Source: Pseudomonadota bacterium (GTDB lineage: Bacteria; Pseudomonadota; Alphaproteobacteria; Puniceispirillales; Marisalimonadaceae). From it: 34,235 bases of DNA. Positions 25,393 to 32,045 of the stretch are shown here, one piece after another. The stretch is taken from the NCBI GenBank assembly GCA_027625145.1, contig JAQBXK010000021.1, positions 1-34,235 of the forward strand, written 5' to 3'. A program made the translations under genes and the position numbers. Position 1 is the stretch's first letter. The number at the start of each line of letters is the position of its first letter. The notes below the pieces were generated by a model, which saw nothing but the letters and a program-made list of their open reading frames with translations, searched no databases and was not told the DNA's origin.

Positions 25393-27042
25393 TTATAATT
25401 CATCTCCTCTTATTTTATATTTTAATAATTGATTAGTAAAAGCTAAGGTCTTATCAGTTTGAGGATTTATTCCAAGAATTGGAGCAATTCTAGTTACTAA
25501 TTTACTTATAACAGGAGCCGCAATCCAGCCAGCAGTACTGCGATGTGAAAACTTTTGCCCATTAGGATTATCTATCATTACTGTTATTACAAACTTGGGC
25601 TCATTAATTGGAAAGCCTCCAGTAAACGATACAATATTTTTGTTTTTAAAATATCCACCTGATTTTTTTACTTTATCAGCTGTTCCAGTTTTTCCACCAA
25701 CTAAGTAGCCTGGTGCTTCAGCTTTTTTCCCTGTCCCATATCGATTACTGACAACTAATCTCATTATATTTTTCATTTCAGTAGATGTGTTATTAGAAAA
25801 AATACGTTTTTTCTTAATGTTTTTTAATGAATTTTTTATTAAAGTTGGGCTCACCTTCAATCCACCATTTATGATTGATGCAGTGGCTGCTGAAAGATGA
25901 ACTGGGGTAATTGAAATTCCATGACCATAAGAAATAGTCATTGTAGATATTTTTTTTTTATCAGTTATTATTTGAGGCTTGCCGATTTCAGGAATTTCAA
26001 GTTTTATAGTATCAAAAAGACCTAATTTTTTTAAAAATTTAAGCTGTATATCTGGCCCAATTTTTTCAGCTATCAAAGCAGAGCCTATATTGCTTGAATG
26101 AACTATTATTTCAGGTATATTGATAGCCAATTTTAAGGCATGGTCGTCATTTATAATTCTTGAAGATATTTTTAGAGGCTTTGATACATCAAATAAATCA
26201 GTTTCTTTAATTAATTTACTTTCATAAGCAATTGCAGCAGTTATCAATTTTAAAGTTGATCCAAGTTCATATGTGCCCTTAGAGGCTCTATTAAAGAGCT
26301 GCTCATCAGACGATTTTCTATAATTATTTGCATTGTAATCAGGAAAAGATGCAAGAGCATAAATTTCTCCAGAATTTACATTCATAATTACACCTGCTCC
26401 ACCTTCAGCTTCAAATTTACTGATTTGTTCAGAAAGGACAGTTTTTAAAATATGCTGAACTCCTGCATGAATTGATAAATTAACATCTTGGCCATTTAAT
26501 AATTTGTTATCAAATGATTTTTCAATCCCTGCAGTTCCTTTGCCATCTATATCAGTGTTGCCGAGAATATGAGATGCCAAGCTATTCCCTGGGTAAACTC
26601 GTTTATTCTTTTTTTCTATTACAATTCCTTCAATTCCAGCTTTTAGAACATCAACATGATCTTTAGGGGTTATCTCTCTAATTAAATTGATTTGGTTTTT
26701 TGTAGTATTTATTTTTTTTAATAAAATAGTTTCATTAATTGATGGAAAAATAATTTTGAGCTTTGAAATGGTTTCTTTTTTATTTAAGATATTTTGAGGA
26801 TTAATACTTAAACTTGAAATATCAATTGTTGTAGCTAAAAGATTTTTATTCCTATCAAAAATATCTCCGCGAGCTACATTTTTTTTTATATATGATGAGG
26901 TGTCATTGTTCTTTATCACCTTTGTAGCTTCATCATATTTGTTAATATTAGCCAAGCTAACCGTTCTATAACCTATAGTGAAAAATGATGCCATTAAAAT
27001 AAATCCGCAAACGAACAGCTTGCCTTTTCTTATATTGGGCAT
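25393..27042 (-). CDS. ftsI: Septal transpeptidase FtsI (PBP3)
   Basis: Class B penicillin-binding protein that cross-links septal peptidoglycan as the partner of FtsW. Seen: a short cytoplasmic tail, one membrane segment (~8-27), the PBP dimerisation domain with RGDIFDRN (58-65), and the transpeptidase domain. Its three motifs are intact: STLK (262-265, catalytic S262), SSN (316-318) and KTG (451-453). Length of 549 residues is normal. No clear ribosome-binding site precedes the ATG; it follows ftsL by 41 nt. Confidence 0.97.
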   Translation of the reverse strand: MPNIRKGKLFVCGFILMASFFTIGYRTVSLANINKYDEATKVIKNNDTSSYIKKNVARGDIFDRNKNLLATTIDISSLSINPQNILNKKETISKLKIIFPSINETILLKKINTTKNQINLIREITPKDHVDVLKAGIEGIVIEKKNKRVYPGNSLASHILGNTDIDGKGTAGIEKSFDNKLLNGQDVNLSIHAGVQHILKTVLSEQISKFEAEGGAGVIMNVNSGEIYALASFPDYNANNYRKSSDEQLFNRASKGTYELGSTLKLITAAIAYESKLIKETDLFDVSKPLKISSRIINDDHALKLAINIPEIIVHSSNIGSALIAEKIGPDIQLKFLKKLGLFDTIKLEIPEIGKPQIITDKKKISTMTISYGHGISITPVHLSAATASIINGGLKVSPTLIKNSLKNIKKKRIFSNNTSTEMKNIMRLVVSNRYGTGKKAEAPGYLVGGKTGTADKVKKSGGYFKNKNIVSFTGGFPINEPKFVITVMIDNPNGQKFSHRSTAGWIAAPVISKLVTRIAPILGINPQTDKTLAFTNQLLKYKIRGDEL

Positions 27043-27083: not shown

Positions 27084-27389
27084 TTATAATAATTCTCCAT
27101 TATTTATTATATTTTGAGTGCTAACTAAATCTTCTATATTCCAAATATCTATTGGAAGAATTGGCCTCATGTTTAATTTTTCTATTGCTAGTTTTTCTAT
27201 TCTATCTGGCCTTTTTAGATAGTTTAATTCAGCTCTAAGAATATTTATATCTGACTTTGTTAACATTATATCTTGATTAATTTTAGCAAGCTCTACTTCT
27301 CTTTTTAAAATAAAATATTTTATTTGATACAAAGAAATTGCAATAAAAATTATAAAAAATACAAACGAAAACGATGGATATCTTATCAT
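27084..27389 (-). CDS. ftsL: Cell division protein FtsL
   Basis: Small bitopic divisome protein that pairs with FtsB and FtsQ and activates FtsWI. A membrane segment (~6-24) is followed by a heptad-like coiled coil (~28-60, LKREVELAKINQDIM and onward) and a conserved-looking end with RPDRIEKLAIEKLNMRP. The 101 residues and the position between rsmH and ftsI identify it, since FtsL sequences diverge strongly. Its ATG overlaps the rsmH stop by 4 nt. Confidence 0.9.
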   Translation of the reverse strand: MIRYPSFSFVFFIIFIAISLYQIKYFILKREVELAKINQDIMLTKSDINILRAELNYLKRPDRIEKLAIEKLNMRPILPIDIWNIEDLVSTQNIINNGELL

Positions 27390-28339
27390 GAAATTTCTCC
27401 ATATAAAGATGGAGAAAAAGTTCTAGCTGCAATACGCAACTTAGCTGATCTAGATCTTTTATTTTTTAAAATTTCTTCTTCTGACGGAAGTATAGGTTTT
27501 TTTGTAATTATTTTTAAACTATGTGCTGAAGAAATTAAGTCAGGCAAATAACGAGATGTAGGACTATTTTTTGAACACTTTAAAAAAAATTTTTTAATTA
27601 TTCTATCTTCAATAGAATGAAAAGATACTACAGCTAATATACCATTTGGTTTTAAAATTTTTTCAGCAGCTATTAACCCATGCTCTAATTCAGAAATTTC
27701 GTCATTTAAATACATTCTTATAGCTTGGAAAGTTTTAGTAGCAGGATGAATTTTATGATTAATTTTAGGAACACAATTTCTTACGATTGACGCTAATTGT
27801 GCAGTATTTGTTATAGATTGTGCGGATCTTTCTCTGACAATATTTTTAGCAATTCTTCTTGAAAAAACTTCATCACCAAGTTCATAGATAATGTTTGCAA
27901 GGGTATCTTCTTCAACCTGATTAATGAACTCTTCTGCAGTTGCTCCTTTTTTTGACATTCTCATATCTAAAGGACCGTCTAATCTAAAAGAAAAACCTCT
28001 GTTTCCTTGATCTAATTGAGGGCTGGAAACACCTAAATCAAAAGTTATTCCAGCTACTGTTTCTATTTCTAGCATTTTAACAAATTTAACAATTTCAGAA
28101 AAATTGCCATTGATAAAAAAAAATCTGTTCTTAAAATCTTTCTTTAATTGAGCAGCTATAATTTCTGCTTCGGGGTCTCTGTCTATTGCAAGAACTTTAC
28201 AATTATTTTTTTTTAAAATTGCTTTGCTATAACCTCCTAACCCAAAAGTTGCGTCAATATAAAATTCACCATCTTCAATTAATAAAGCATTTAAAGTTTC
28301 TTCTAATAAGACTGGAATATGTAAACTTTCGTTATTCAT
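27386..28339 (-). CDS. rsmH: 16S rRNA (cytosine-1402-N4) methyltransferase RsmH
   Basis: SAM-dependent enzyme that methylates C1402 in the ribosomal P site; older name MraW. Seen: HIPVLLEE near the start, SAM loop DATFGLGGYS, AIDRDPEA, FDLGVSSPQLDQGNRGFSFR, DGPLDMRM and VSFHSIEDRIIK, all hallmarks of the family. I chose the ATG at 28339, with a weak AAAAG 9 nt upstream. The in-frame ATG at 28348 would add three residues and directly follows that site. It overlaps mraZ by about 8 nt and ftsL by 4 nt. Confidence 0.97.
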   Translation of the reverse strand: MNNESLHIPVLLEETLNALLIEDGEFYIDATFGLGGYSKAILKKNNCKVLAIDRDPEAEIIAAQLKKDFKNRFFFINGNFSEIVKFVKMLEIETVAGITFDLGVSSPQLDQGNRGFSFRLDGPLDMRMSKKGATAEEFINQVEEDTLANIIYELGDEVFSRRIAKNIVRERSAQSITNTAQLASIVRNCVPKINHKIHPATKTFQAIRMYLNDEISELEHGLIAAEKILKPNGILAVVSFHSIEDRIIKKFFLKCSKNSPTSRYLPDLISSAHSLKIITKKPILPSEEEILKNKRSRSAKLRIAARTFSPSLYGEIS

Positions 28340-28802
28340 TACTAACATCTTTTAAAAGGTTGCTTTTACTTAAAATTAATTTTGGAGGACCTTTTTCTTT
28401 TAGTATTTGCTGTGAATAATCATATTGAATTTGATATTCAGAAGGTGACCAAATATAAAAAGATTCTCCTATTCCCATGAAAACAGCTTTATCTGTTAAA
28501 CCAGAAAAATCCATTAATGTTTCTGGAATAATAACTCTGCCACCACTATCAAATTTCATTTCAAAGGCGTCTGCCATCATCATTCTTAAAACTGCAGCTT
28601 CATCAGACAAAGCGTTTAGCTGATCTATTGCATCAATATACTGTTGCATTCGATTAGCGGTGGTTCCTTCAATGCATTTAAATTGAAGGCTTTTAAACAA
28701 AATTAATGGACTACTTTCTTTTTCAAGATTGAGTCTATATGAAGCAGGAATGGATACTCGACATTTTAGATCAATTTTATTATGTGAGGTTGATAAAAAC
28801 AT
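28332..28802 (-). CDS. mraZ: Transcriptional regulator MraZ
   Basis: AbrB-like DNA-binding protein that controls its own operon, the dcw cluster. It has the two MraZ repeats: D11-xxx-R15 followed by VSIPASYR, and D85-SGG-R89 followed by VIIPE. In the first motif the usual glycine before Arg is a cysteine (DLKCR). I chose the ATG at 28802, giving MFLST, the typical MraZ start, and 156 residues; an in-frame TTG at 28835 would add 11 untypical residues. It is the first protein gene of the cluster. Four phased ATGGG repeats lie 110-144 nt upstream and are the likely operator. Confidence 0.94.
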   Translation of the reverse strand: MFLSTSHNKIDLKCRVSIPASYRLNLEKESSPLILFKSLQFKCIEGTTANRMQQYIDAIDQLNALSDEAAVLRMMMADAFEMKFDSGGRVIIPETLMDFSGLTDKAVFMGIGESFYIWSPSEYQIQYDYSQQILKEKGPPKLILSKSNLLKDVSNE

Positions 28803-28904: not shown

Positions 28905-28941
28905 ATTATAATGGGATATCATGGGTTTTTATGGGAGTCAA
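28905..28941 (-). promoter_or_regulatory. Candidate dcw (mraZ) promoter
   Basis: On the minus strand, TATAAT (28905-28910) is a perfect -10 hexamer about 100 nt before the mraZ start. A TTGACT (28936-28941) lies upstream, but 25 nt away, too far for a normal spacer; with 17-nt spacing TTGACT would pair with the poor TATCCC (28913-28918). The exact pair is uncertain, yet both elements lie within the ATGGG repeat array, so a repressor on the repeats would block either one. Confidence 0.5.
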
Positions 28942-28945
28942 TGGG
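28911..28945 (+). promoter_or_regulatory. MraZ operator: four ATGGG repeats, 10-bp period
   Basis: ATGGG occurs at 28911, 28921, 28931 and 28941, each separated by exactly 5 nt. MraZ is known to bind TGGGN direct repeats with 5-nt spacers upstream of its own gene, so the array matches the established operator pattern, here with four copies. The period is about one helix turn, which puts all sites on one face of the DNA. On the mraZ coding strand the repeats read CCCAT. They overlap the candidate promoter, which fits repression by MraZ of mraZ and the whole downstream cluster. Confidence 0.85.
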
Positions 28946-29013: not shown

Positions 29014-29369
29014 AATTATCAGAGAGTCTATAAGCCGGGTTTTGTATCTAAAATTTTGATAGTAGTTATTCATCTTGAAAGTTTATTGCTAAACTTTTCT
29101 AGCGACCTACCCAAGAAACTTTGCAGAAATACAAAATATGTTTCTTCTATTTGGTCTTGCTCTAAGTGGGGTTTACCATGCCATTTCTATCACTAGAAAT
29201 GCGGTGCGCTCTTACCACACCATTTCACCCTTACCAAAAAAATGGCGGTATATTTTCTGTGGCACTTTCCCTAGGGTTACCCCCGCTGGATGTTATCCAG
29301 CACTTTATTTCTGTAGAGCCCGGACTTTCCTCTGTAATGAAACAGCAACTACTCAACTCTCTGATATTT
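29014..29369 (-). ncRNA. rnpB: RNase P RNA (type A-like, M1 RNA)
   Basis: Catalytic RNA of RNase P, which trims the 5' ends of tRNA precursors. The conserved 5' core is the complement of 29316-29332 (GAGGAAAGTCCGGGCTC). The GAGCAAGACCAAATAG core lies at 29147-29162, and the 3' core ACAAAACCCGGCTTAT is the complement of 29030-29045. Helix P1 is clear: ATCAGAGAGT at the 5' end pairs exactly with ACTCTCTGAT at 29018-29027. A P-helix with GTAAGAGCGCACC and the GGGTAGG core are also present. About 355 nt, a normal size. The ends are set from P1 and may be off by a few bases. It is transcribed towards mraZ and away from uup on the same strand. Confidence 0.96.
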
Positions 29370-29424: not shown

Positions 29425-31257
29425 TTATTTAAAATTATTAATTTCATCTTGCAATAACTGTAGATCAAGCCAATCATTCTCTGCTTTAGAAAGTTGTTCT
29501 TTTAAAAGAGATATCTCATTAATAATTAGATTAAATTTATTTCTATCTTCATCATATAGATTATTATTATTTAAAATATGTTCTGATTTAGCTAATTTTA
29601 ATTCTAAATTTTCAATCTTTTTTGGTAATGATTTTAAATCAAAATCTTCTTTAAAACTTAATTTTATTTTTGATTTATTTTGATTTATTTGATTGCTTTT
29701 CTTTAAGACCTTGTTTTGATCTTTTAATTTTAAAAACTTTAGTTTTGAGAATCCATATTTAACATAATAGTCAGAAAAATTACCTGAATGATTCAAAATT
29801 TTATTGTCATTTTCAAAAACTATAAGTTTATTTATAGTTGCATCTAAGAAATATCTATCATGACTAACAATTAAAACTGTTCCATCATAATTTTTAATAT
29901 TATCCTTAAGCAGATTCAAAGTTTCAAAATCAAGATCATTTGTGGGTTCGTCTAAAATTAAAAAATTATGCTCGTTTAAAAATAATTTTGATAATAACAG
30001 CCTTACTTTTTCACCACCTGACAAAGTGGAATTACTTTGCATTGATTTTTTTTCATCAAATAAAAATTTTTTAAGATAAGATAATACATGTAATTTATGG
30101 CCCTGAAACTCAACATGATCGCCGCTTGGTGTTAAGGTTTTCCATGGTGTGCTGTCTAAATCCAAGGTTTCTTTATTTTGATCGAAATATTTAATATTTA
30201 GTCTTTCACCAATTTTAATTGTTCCTGATGTTGGTTGATAGATTCCTTGAAAAAGTTTTATTAAAGTAGTTTTCCCACTTCCATTTGCTCCTATAACTCC
30301 AATTCTATCAAGACGTTTAATTTTGTAATTAAAATCTTTAATAATTTCTTTGTTCACATCTTTTTTATCGCCATTTTTATTAAATTTAAAGCTCAAATTT
30401 AATGCTTCAATGACATTTGATCCTGTTTCACTTGTTTTGTTTAAAGAAATATCAATTGAGTTTTTGCTATCTATTTTTAAATTAGAATAATCTTCATTAA
30501 GTTTATCTAATTCTCTTACTCTTCCCATATTCCGTTTTCTTCTTGCTGATATTCCTTCTATTGACCATTTAGTTTCAATTTTAATTTTTTGTTTAAGTTT
30601 ATGTGCTTGATTTTTTTCAATTTCTATAAGTTCTTCAGACCATTCAAAAAAACCTTCGTATTGGCCATCACGTTTTCTTAATTTACCGTGGTTTAACCAA
30701 AAAGTTTTAGTACCAATTTTTTTAAGAAATTCTTGATCATGACTTATAACGATCATAGTAGTTCTAATATTTATTAGCTTTTGCTCTAACCATCCAATTG
30801 TAGGTAAGTCAATATGATTGGTTGGTTCATCTAAAAGAATTATATCTGGTTCTTGAAGTAAAGCTTTTGCTATAAAAATTTTTCTAAGTTCTCCTCCAGA
30901 TATTGTTTTTGAAAGATCTACATTTTGTATATTTAATTCTTCTATTATTTCGCCAATTTTAGAAATATTTGGATGCTCAATATCTTGAGAGATAAATTCT
31001 GAAAGATTATGAATAGTTGGTATTCTTGGATTTTGATCAAGGTATTCAATCTTTAGATTAGGTGATTTCCAAATATTTCCCTTATCGTTTTCATGTGTAC
31101 CTTTAATTGTTTTTAATAGAGTGCTTTTCCCCGATCCATTCTCTCCGACTAATATTATACGATCGAATCTATGGATTGCAAAATCAACTTTATTAATGAG
31201 CAACTTATTTGATTGAGAAATCACAAGGTCTTGGACAGTTATTAGAGGAATAGACAT
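29425..31257 (-). CDS. uup: ABC-F family ATPase Uup
   Basis: Soluble ATPase with two ABC domains and no membrane part; ABC-F proteins act on ribosomes, and Uup also affects DNA stability. Seen in order: Walker A GENGSGKST, signature ISGGELRKI, Walker B ILLDEPTNHID; then a charged linker (ETKWSIEGISARRKR); then Walker A GANGSGKTT, signature LSGGEKVRL and Walker B LILDEPTNDLD. A C-terminal coiled coil of about 75 residues (ENLELKLAKSEHILNN and onward) marks it as Uup rather than Ettas. I chose the ATG at 31257, with AAGG 5 nt upstream; the open frame extends 12 codons further into djlA. From this start it has 610 residues. Confidence 0.92.
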   Translation of the reverse strand: MSIPLITVQDLVISQSNKLLINKVDFAIHRFDRIILVGENGSGKSTLLKTIKGTHENDKGNIWKSPNLKIEYLDQNPRIPTIHNLSEFISQDIEHPNISKIGEIIEELNIQNVDLSKTISGGELRKIFIAKALLQEPDIILLDEPTNHIDLPTIGWLEQKLINIRTTMIVISHDQEFLKKIGTKTFWLNHGKLRKRDGQYEGFFEWSEELIEIEKNQAHKLKQKIKIETKWSIEGISARRKRNMGRVRELDKLNEDYSNLKIDSKNSIDISLNKTSETGSNVIEALNLSFKFNKNGDKKDVNKEIIKDFNYKIKRLDRIGVIGANGSGKTTLIKLFQGIYQPTSGTIKIGERLNIKYFDQNKETLDLDSTPWKTLTPSGDHVEFQGHKLHVLSYLKKFLFDEKKSMQSNSTLSGGEKVRLLLSKLFLNEHNFLILDEPTNDLDFETLNLLKDNIKNYDGTVLIVSHDRYFLDATINKLIVFENDNKILNHSGNFSDYYVKYGFSKLKFLKLKDQNKVLKKSNQINQNKSKIKLSFKEDFDLKSLPKKIENLELKLAKSEHILNNNNLYDEDRNKFNLIINEISLLKEQLSKAENDWLDLQLLQDEINNFK

Positions 31258-31259
31258 AT

Positions 31260-31985
31260 TTACCTTATTTTTTTTTGTTGGATAATATCCCAAGCATTAT
31301 TTATTTCTTGAAGCCTAGAAGTACTTTTTTGAATAAAGTCTTCTGGCAATCCTTTGGAAACAAGGTTGTCAGGATGATGGTTTATAGCTAATATCTTCCA
31401 TTTTTTTTTAATTTCTTCCAATGGAGTGAATTTTGTAACTCCTAAAACTTGATAGGGATTAATTGTCTTATATATGTTTGAAGAATAAATTCTATCAAAA
31501 TGATCATCAGTAAATCCAAAAATAGTGCTAACTTTTTTTAGATAAATTAATTCTGATGAAGATATTATTCCATCTGCTTTAGCAATAAAGAATAATAAGT
31601 TTAACAACTCTTCTAAAACTGGAGACTTAGCTTCTAATAAACTTGCTATCTGTTTCGCATAAATATCAAACCCATCAATTGTTTTTTTTGCTTGATCCCA
31701 TAACCTTCCTACATTTTTAATTTCATTATTTGGAAAATTTACTTTTTTCTTGAATGCAATTATTTCATCTTTCGTAACTTTGCCATCAGCTTTTGCCATC
31801 TTAGCTGAAAGAACTATAACTCCAATTGTAAAGCCTATTTGTTTAACAGCTATTTCTTCAGGTAATTGATCTTTAGATGGAACTTTATCTATAGCATGTC
31901 CTGCAACGGCTCCAATAAGGCCTCCTATAGGGCCGGCGAACGCAAAACCTGATGCGCTTCCAATAATTTTTCCCCATATACTCAT
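31260..31985 (-). CDS. djlA: DjlA-like membrane J-domain co-chaperone
   Basis: Inner-membrane DnaJ-type co-chaperone that stimulates DnaK. The N-terminus IWGKIIGSASGFAFAG and following glycines (GGLIGAVAGHAIDK) resemble the Gly-rich membrane anchor of E. coli DjlA. A TerB-like helical domain follows (~45-150, with AKMAKADGKVTKDEI and FIAKADGIISSSEL, two matching acidic motifs). The J-domain ends the protein (~180-241, PYQVLGV and the HPD motif in NHHPDN). I chose the ATG at 31985, giving 241 residues; an in-frame ATG at 32021 would add 12 untypical residues. No good ribosome-binding site is seen for any start. It is upstream of uup by 2 nt and divergent from the tusA-like gene. Confidence 0.88.
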   Translation of the reverse strand: MSIWGKIIGSASGFAFAGPIGGLIGAVAGHAIDKVPSKDQLPEEIAVKQIGFTIGVIVLSAKMAKADGKVTKDEIIAFKKKVNFPNNEIKNVGRLWDQAKKTIDGFDIYAKQIASLLEAKSPVLEELLNLLFFIAKADGIISSSELIYLKKVSTIFGFTDDHFDRIYSSNIYKTINPYQVLGVTKFTPLEEIKKKWKILAINHHPDNLVSKGLPEDFIQKSTSRLQEINNAWDIIQQKKIR

Positions 31986-32045
31986 GATTTGTTTATTACA
32001 GTTTCGCATGATTACATTCAAGTAAAATAAAAATGGAATACTTCT

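Follow-up and report, generated by a model that had tools for sequence, protein, structure and literature searches.

The question raised by this locus is how MraZ acts on the promoter of its own gene in an alphaproteobacterium, and whether it does so in the arrangement known from other bacteria. MraZ is encoded at the head of the cell-division operon and is conserved widely, yet its mechanism has been worked out in few species. In this study the window, which is the whole stretch of 34,235 nucleotides that was analysed, carries mraZ as the first gene of the dcw cluster, directly before mraW, in the following setting:

25393-27042, minus strand: ftsI, penicillin-binding protein (PF00905, PF03717)
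27084-27389, minus strand: short protein in the ftsL position, with a DivIC match below cut-off
27386-28348, minus strand: mraW (rsmH), overlapping the end of mraZ (PF01795)
28332-28802, minus strand: mraZ, 156 aa (MFLST...), with two PF02381 stretches (63.7 bits against a cut-off of 23) and a fold match to solved MraZ
29015-29364, minus strand: rnpB, the RNase P RNA, upstream of the promoter and in the same direction (RF00010, 319 bits)

Further upstream lie a two-ATPase ABC-F-like gene (29425-31293) and, upstream of that, a gene for a protein with TerB and C-terminal DnaJ domains (31260-32021) that appears to be DjlA-like. RNase P RNA was also found within the fetched mraZ flank, upstream and in the same direction, in 12 of the 20 loci of the order that were searched (L004, L009, L031, L032, L033, L047, L049, L055, L080, L096, L100 and L102).

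The first-pass annotation had described four ATGGG copies at 10-bp steps about 110 nt before mraZ, overlapping a TATAAT, and all of this was borne out. The copies lie on the plus strand at 28911-28915, 28921-28925, 28931-28935 and 28941-28945 in exact 10-bp steps, the four TGGG cores spanning 28912-28945; the nearest is 108 nt from the mraZ ATG (28802), and a TATAAT at 28907-28912 on the plus strand overlaps the first ATGGG. The pattern TGGG-N6-TGGG-N6-TGGG, with up to one mismatch allowed, matched twice in the window, at overlapping positions and without a mismatch, but never in 100 shuffles, and with no mismatch allowed those two were the only matches in the whole 2.27-Mb genome (reversed control, 0). 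Because mraZ sits on the minus strand the boxes are antisense to it. Read on the coding strand the array is CCCATTGACTCCCATAAAAACCCATGATATCCCAT, which in the direction of mraZ gives the order CCCAT, TGACT, CCCAT, AAAAA, CCCAT, GATAT, CCCAT, TATAAT, and the four boxes can be named accordingly:

28941-28945, minus strand: putative MraZ box A, CCCAT; CCCAT in 40/41 loci of the family
28931-28935, minus strand: putative MraZ box B, CCCAT; within the family this is the box that varies, non-CCCA (e.g. ACCAT) in 20/41 loci
28921-28925, minus strand: putative MraZ box C, CCCAT, followed by GnTAT; CCCAT in 40/41 family loci
28911-28915, minus strand: putative MraZ box D, CCCAT; the predicted -10 hexamer ends in its CCC

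The alignment of upstream regions from relatives, which the first-pass annotation had proposed as a check, showed that both the repeat and its period are conserved across the order and the class. Within the order mraZ is present in 100 of 136 genomes, the window's own included, and all 100 upstream regions were examined; L001 and L002 were left out as copies of the window. The class sample of 119 loci from 117 genomes (G216 and G515 each contribute two) is not random, being made up of the 30 best Pfam scorers minus L120, which belongs to the order, the 30 best matches of a second search, and 60 loci hand-picked among the matches listed, mostly one per family. Likewise non-random are the 71 loci from other classes of the phylum (the 30 best, 40 picked among the matches listed, and Escherichia coli MG1655), and the 80 named Rhodobacteraceae loci are the 80 top-ranking of 350 relatives from a single genome scan. 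A five-slot, 10-bp register with three or more exact CCCA boxes was found in 95/100 order loci and 90/119 class loci, the remaining 29 class loci falling short; ten dinucleotide shuffles of each of the 370 upstream regions gave at least three boxes, on either strand, in 3/3700. Three of the five order loci that were missed lie on contigs that end within 105 nt (L050, L053, L067), and the others are L031, in which the array is degenerate, and L094. Rhodobacteraceae arrays are degenerate, with three exact CCCA boxes in just 5/80 loci; a looser pattern found the array full in 61, partial in 10 and absent in 9.

The array also goes with the gene. When 38 alphaproteobacterial genomes were searched for CCCA-N6-CCCATGNTATCCCA with at most one mismatch, it was present in 17 of 21 that carry mraZ and in one of 17 that do not, many of the latter being small genomes, and the reversed control matched in 0/38. 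Given this conservation, the co-occurrence with mraZ and the likeness to known boxes, the array is very probably an MraZ operator, and the earlier suggestion of an autoregulatory operator gains from these comparisons as well as from a solved MraZ structure whose title names four boxes. The repeats might instead bind another cell-division regulator, such as an NtrX- or CenR-like response regulator, as both CenR and NtrX are described as binding upstream of mraZ in Rhodobacter sphaeroides (PMC9275681, PMC7240162). However the NtrX site, given as GCA-N9-TGC in PMC7240162, is unlike the array repeat. The latter agrees with known MraZ boxes when read on the other strand, and its occurrence tracks mraZ, so that this explanation is highly improbable.

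If the array is an operator, its relation to the promoter becomes the central issue. The elements that we propose, together with a competing hexamer, are these:

28936-28941, minus strand: candidate -35, TTGACT, occupying the A-B spacer and sharing one base with A
28913-28921, minus strand: candidate extended -10, TGATATCCC, with the hexamer TATCCC at 28918-28913, 17 bp from the -35
28906, minus strand: predicted transcription start (A), give or take several nucleotides, 12 nt after the first -10 base; leader about 104 nt
28905-28910, minus strand: TATAAT after box D, a possible alternative -10; 25 bp from TTGACT

The class consensus, TcCCaTTGAC.CCCATa..aTCCCATG.TATCCCATaa, has conserved first and third spacers and a much less conserved second one, and we infer that the two conserved spacers are the sites of the -35 and the extended -10, 17-18 bp apart. 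A TTG[AT][CT] with the CCCA of box C at +16/17 was found in 94/97 order loci (those with at least 150 nt upstream), 78/119 class loci, 45/80 Rhodobacteraceae and 1/71 loci from other classes, against 5/970, 8/1190, 8/800 and 15/710 in the respective mononucleotide shuffles. TTGAC is kept even where box A is lost (L100, L101, L106). Among the loci anchored in this way, the TG is present in 94/94 of the order and TATCCC in 91/94, bearing in mind that the choice of anchor favours CCC; TATCCC is found in 62/78 anchored class loci, and CATCCC in 41/45 anchored Rhodobacteraceae. Position -7 is C in 94/94, 74/78 and 44/45 loci of the order, class and Rhodobacteraceae, a count that anchoring also favours and that is not independent of box D.

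Judged by the E. coli rule, TATCCC makes a poor -10. A standard scan for -35/-10 pairs returned three promoter-like sites, not more than expected from shuffles (mean 2.5), and TTGACT/TATCCC could not be among them, since the scan requires a T in the sixth position. For four alphaproteobacterial species, the share of sigma-70 promoters without T at -7 is stated to exceed 60%, and a -10 of this kind is proposed to need CarD (PMC8407463). The genome encodes a CarD-like protein of 174 aa, and with TTGACT-17-TATCCC the locus has, at the sequence level, the features of a CarD-helped alphaproteobacterial sigma-70 promoter.

It is possible, though unlikely, that MraZ binds the array while transcription starts elsewhere, either from the TATAAT that follows box D or as read-through of rnpB transcripts, in which case MraZ would serve as a roadblock or an upstream modulator. 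Since ATTATAAT is palindromic, a TATAAT does stand on the coding strand as well, at 28910-28905; rnpB lies just upstream, and a scan of the interval between it and mraZ gave no terminator; and in E. coli, Burkholderia cenocepacia and Staphylococcus aureus the repeats or G-tracts come after the -10. In spite of this, the TATAAT is not conserved in the family and is wrongly spaced, whereas what most loci of the order retain is TTGAC and TGnTATCCC at 17-18 bp. The earlier description of an operator laid over a promoter holds for the array as the proposed operator; the TATAAT that it took as the promoter element is set aside, and the inversion of the strand had been overlooked.

Several relatives (L006-L031) have common leader motifs such as AATTAAAAGTTTGGACCTTATGC between the promoter and mraZ, and in two genera of the same family (L032-L043) the predicted leader is just about 30-35 nt.

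The strand of the boxes was compared among groups by counting [AG]TGG boxes, at least three in a 10-bp register, in the last 450 nt before mraZ (420 for the named Rhodobacteraceae). In the order 86 loci were antisense, none sense and 14 without a call (n=100); the class gave 93, 2 and 24 (n=119), and the Rhodobacteraceae 9, 0 and 71 (n=80). Other classes of the phylum gave 47 sense, no antisense and 24 without a call (n=71). Dinucleotide shuffles gave calls in 4/1000, 2/1190, 4/800 and 0/710, respectively. Of these class loci with a sense call, L157 is a miscall, as it has the antisense core. L301 (genome G144) is an alphaproteobacterial mraZ with seemingly sense-strand GTGG boxes; several genomes of its family (f13) have no MraZ match, and L301 is possibly a transferred copy. 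The core of the box and its period are common to the Alphaproteobacteria and to E. coli and B. cenocepacia, and it is strand and position that differ. Operators of this kind are known, and the inverted, promoter-fused layout seen across the class would be a variant of them. No description of MraZ boxes in an alphaproteobacterium, nor of this inverted layout, was found in the open literature; Eraso 2014 and Conlan 2005, which may describe such boxes, were outside its scope.

We consider that MraZ autoregulates through an array interleaved with the -35 and -10 and does so by occluding RNA polymerase, and we give this reading a probability of roughly 85%. Four CCCAT boxes one helical turn apart would lie on a single face of the DNA, a spacing with which one MraZ ring could hold several of them. 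Boxes and promoter would alternate, box A being followed by the TTGAC -35, box B, a spacer, box C, TGnTAT and box D, with box D providing the CCC of the TATCCC -10. Bound MraZ would then cover both elements and exclude RNA polymerase, which may itself be helped by CarD at a -10 lacking T at -7, leading to negative autoregulation of mraZ and the downstream division and cell-wall genes. What the sequences themselves show is the repeats, with their conservation, strand, register to TTGAC and TGnTAT and link to mraZ; that MraZ binds them, that TTGAC/TATCCC acts as the promoter, that the genes are repressed and that CarD assists are inferred steps in this scheme.

The same runs could also be read as nucleic acid structure. 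In this explanation a G-quadruplex formed by the GGG runs of the template strand, as proposed for S. aureus mraZ, would control the operon; a quadruplex downstream of the S. aureus mraZ promoter is described in PMC11796246, and four G3 runs with 7-nt loops fit the array of the window and 61/119 class loci. An intramolecular quadruplex needs four runs, however, so that arrays with three, of which there are many, would depend on a run from elsewhere. Just 24/97 order loci and 1/80 Rhodobacteraceae have four CCC in exact 10-bp register, while the period and the core of the box extend far wider, and four G-runs with short loops are not conserved across these two groups. As a conserved function the G-quadruplex was rejected, and as an explanation of this locus it has very little probability.

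A broader form of the occlusion reading can be put forward at about even odds. Here the inverted, promoter-interleaved operator would be common to the Alphaproteobacteria, the CCC of the -10 would itself be an MraZ box, repression would be by occlusion, with RNA polymerase and CarD on one side and the MraZ ring on the other competing for the same bases, and in the Rhodobacteraceae two rings would meet by looping. If the CCC at -9 to -7 doubles as an MraZ box, neither promoter strength nor repressor affinity would be free to evolve without the other. It would follow that the strand of the operator and its position relative to the promoter switched between classes while the core and period of the box stayed constant; that box D is the reason for a -10 without T at -7, linking dcw expression to CarD; and that the layout permits a clean test of occlusion against roadblock by a ring-shaped repressor.

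The protein itself was of interest with respect to box recognition. Six MraZ models match the window protein, all below the NCBIfam cut-offs (for the equivalogs TIGR00242 and NF001477, 67.9 against 98.35 and 114.6 against 162), so that it is a divergent member, filed by its Pfam score, fold and synteny. Its predicted structure (mean pLDDT 86.9) has the double AbrB-like fold and matches 1n0e, 1n0f, 9qlg, 9r4j and 9sz7 at Z 16.4-17.0 over 136-137 residues. The closest solved folds are the MraZ of Mycoplasma pneumoniae and M. genitalium, and two of the M. genitalium entries are titled as promoter-DNA complexes; a paper for 9sz7 and 9r4j was not found in the open literature.

The first-pass annotation was correct in noting that, in the first motif, Cys replaces Gly ahead of the Arg; the second motif keeps Gly. 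Across 41 loci of the family the residue in the first motif is Cys in 25, Ser in 3, Phe in 1 and Gly in 12, and Gly is found in most loci overall; it is Asp in L105 and L117, and Asn in the solved mycoplasmal MraZ. Box B is degenerate in 20 of the 25 Cys loci and is CCCA in all 16 Gly, Ser or Phe loci. On a tree of the family, the state of box B and the Cys label need three changes each and their association follows clades. In the window and its sister, Cys goes together with four intact boxes; in L028, where Phe occurs within the Cys clade, box B is intact, an isolated coincidence. CCCA[TA] boxes are used by all residue groups. The further suggestion that the Cys alters the choice of box was abandoned, as the association is clade-bound and the CCCA boxes are the same in relatives that have Gly, Ser or Phe.

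For the Rhodobacteraceae a mapped start site is available. In R. sphaeroides the dcw transcript starts 268 nt before mraZ, as determined by dRNA-seq and 5' RACE (5/10 clones), and upstream pieces of 188 and 67 nt are reported to have had no promoter activity (PMC5089854); the same account quotes start sites for Caulobacter and Sinorhizobium meliloti. In the 71 of 80 loci with a full or partial array the -10-like element begins between -254 and -321, mostly at -265 to -285, and the starts predicted about 12 nt past it agree with -268 within the variation in leader length, an argument that rests on relatives because R. sphaeroides is absent from the 80-locus set. The text of PMC5089854 does not contain 'TGGG', 'repeat' or 'operator', so MraZ boxes are not described in it. 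The mraZ leaders of L136-L142 (the UpsM region) closely resemble one another beyond the array, a GC-rich inverted repeat before mraZ included. L239, from a record named Nocardioides marinus DP1N28-1, has a Rhodobacteraceae-type mraZ (70% to the probe) and promoter array, and the record is probably a contamination or a mislabelled genome.

Eleven of the 80 Rhodobacteraceae loci have three exact TGGG boxes in the sense orientation, in separate clusters farther upstream than the promoter array. Among the 79 loci (within L166-L245) whose upstream region covers 1100 nt or more there were 126 sense TGGGA-N5-TGGG pairs more than 335 nt before mraZ, with at least one in 66/79, compared with 0.6 expected from shuffles and one antisense pair. 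They fall in two zones, at about -400 to -500 and -600 to -750, with the consensus TGGGAAaTCATGGGa. A stricter pattern gave 16 matches in 8 of 12 Rhodobacteraceae genomes (control, 1), most of them at mraZ by their coordinates and some elsewhere (e.g. G735 C3, G733 C10 and G732 C22). The pair was found in 0/100 order loci, the window included, and in a few other class loci (L151, L160, L278, L296). Our guess is that the opposite-facing arrays loop the DNA between them: lying some 170-450 bp upstream of the array at the promoter, one or two such clusters of box pairs would allow a pair of MraZ rings to come together.

Set beside known systems, the locus combines familiar parts in a different order. 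The E. coli operator reportedly consists of TGGGN repeats with 5-nt spacers at the mraZ promoter. In MG1655 such repeats do precede mraZ, three boxes being visible, but they are on the coding strand and start after the -10, the first of them 43 nt before the ATG, whereas those of the window are antisense and lie over the predicted -35 and -10. As the E. coli 5' UTR is 38 nt (PMC5089854), boxes from -43 lie across the start site. B. cenocepacia, as described in PMC7761207, likewise has four repeats with a 10-nt period (7 + 3), and its MraZ shifts the fragment in EMSA, but as in E. coli the repeats come after the -10 and overlap the start site. In the Rhodobacteraceae the mapped start of the UpsM leader coincides with the region of the inverted array in relatives; that leader, according to PMC5089854, has 268 nt and a terminator, compared with a predicted leader of about 104 nt in the window. 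The Mollicutes differ in their boxes, AAAGTG[T/G] as quoted in PMC8475190, and have Asn where the window protein has Cys. In spite of this the M. genitalium MraZ (9sz7, 9r4j) shares the fold of the window protein at 23% identity, and the title of 9sz7, which refers to a "4 box promoter", suggests that MraZ on four boxes has already been seen in a structure.
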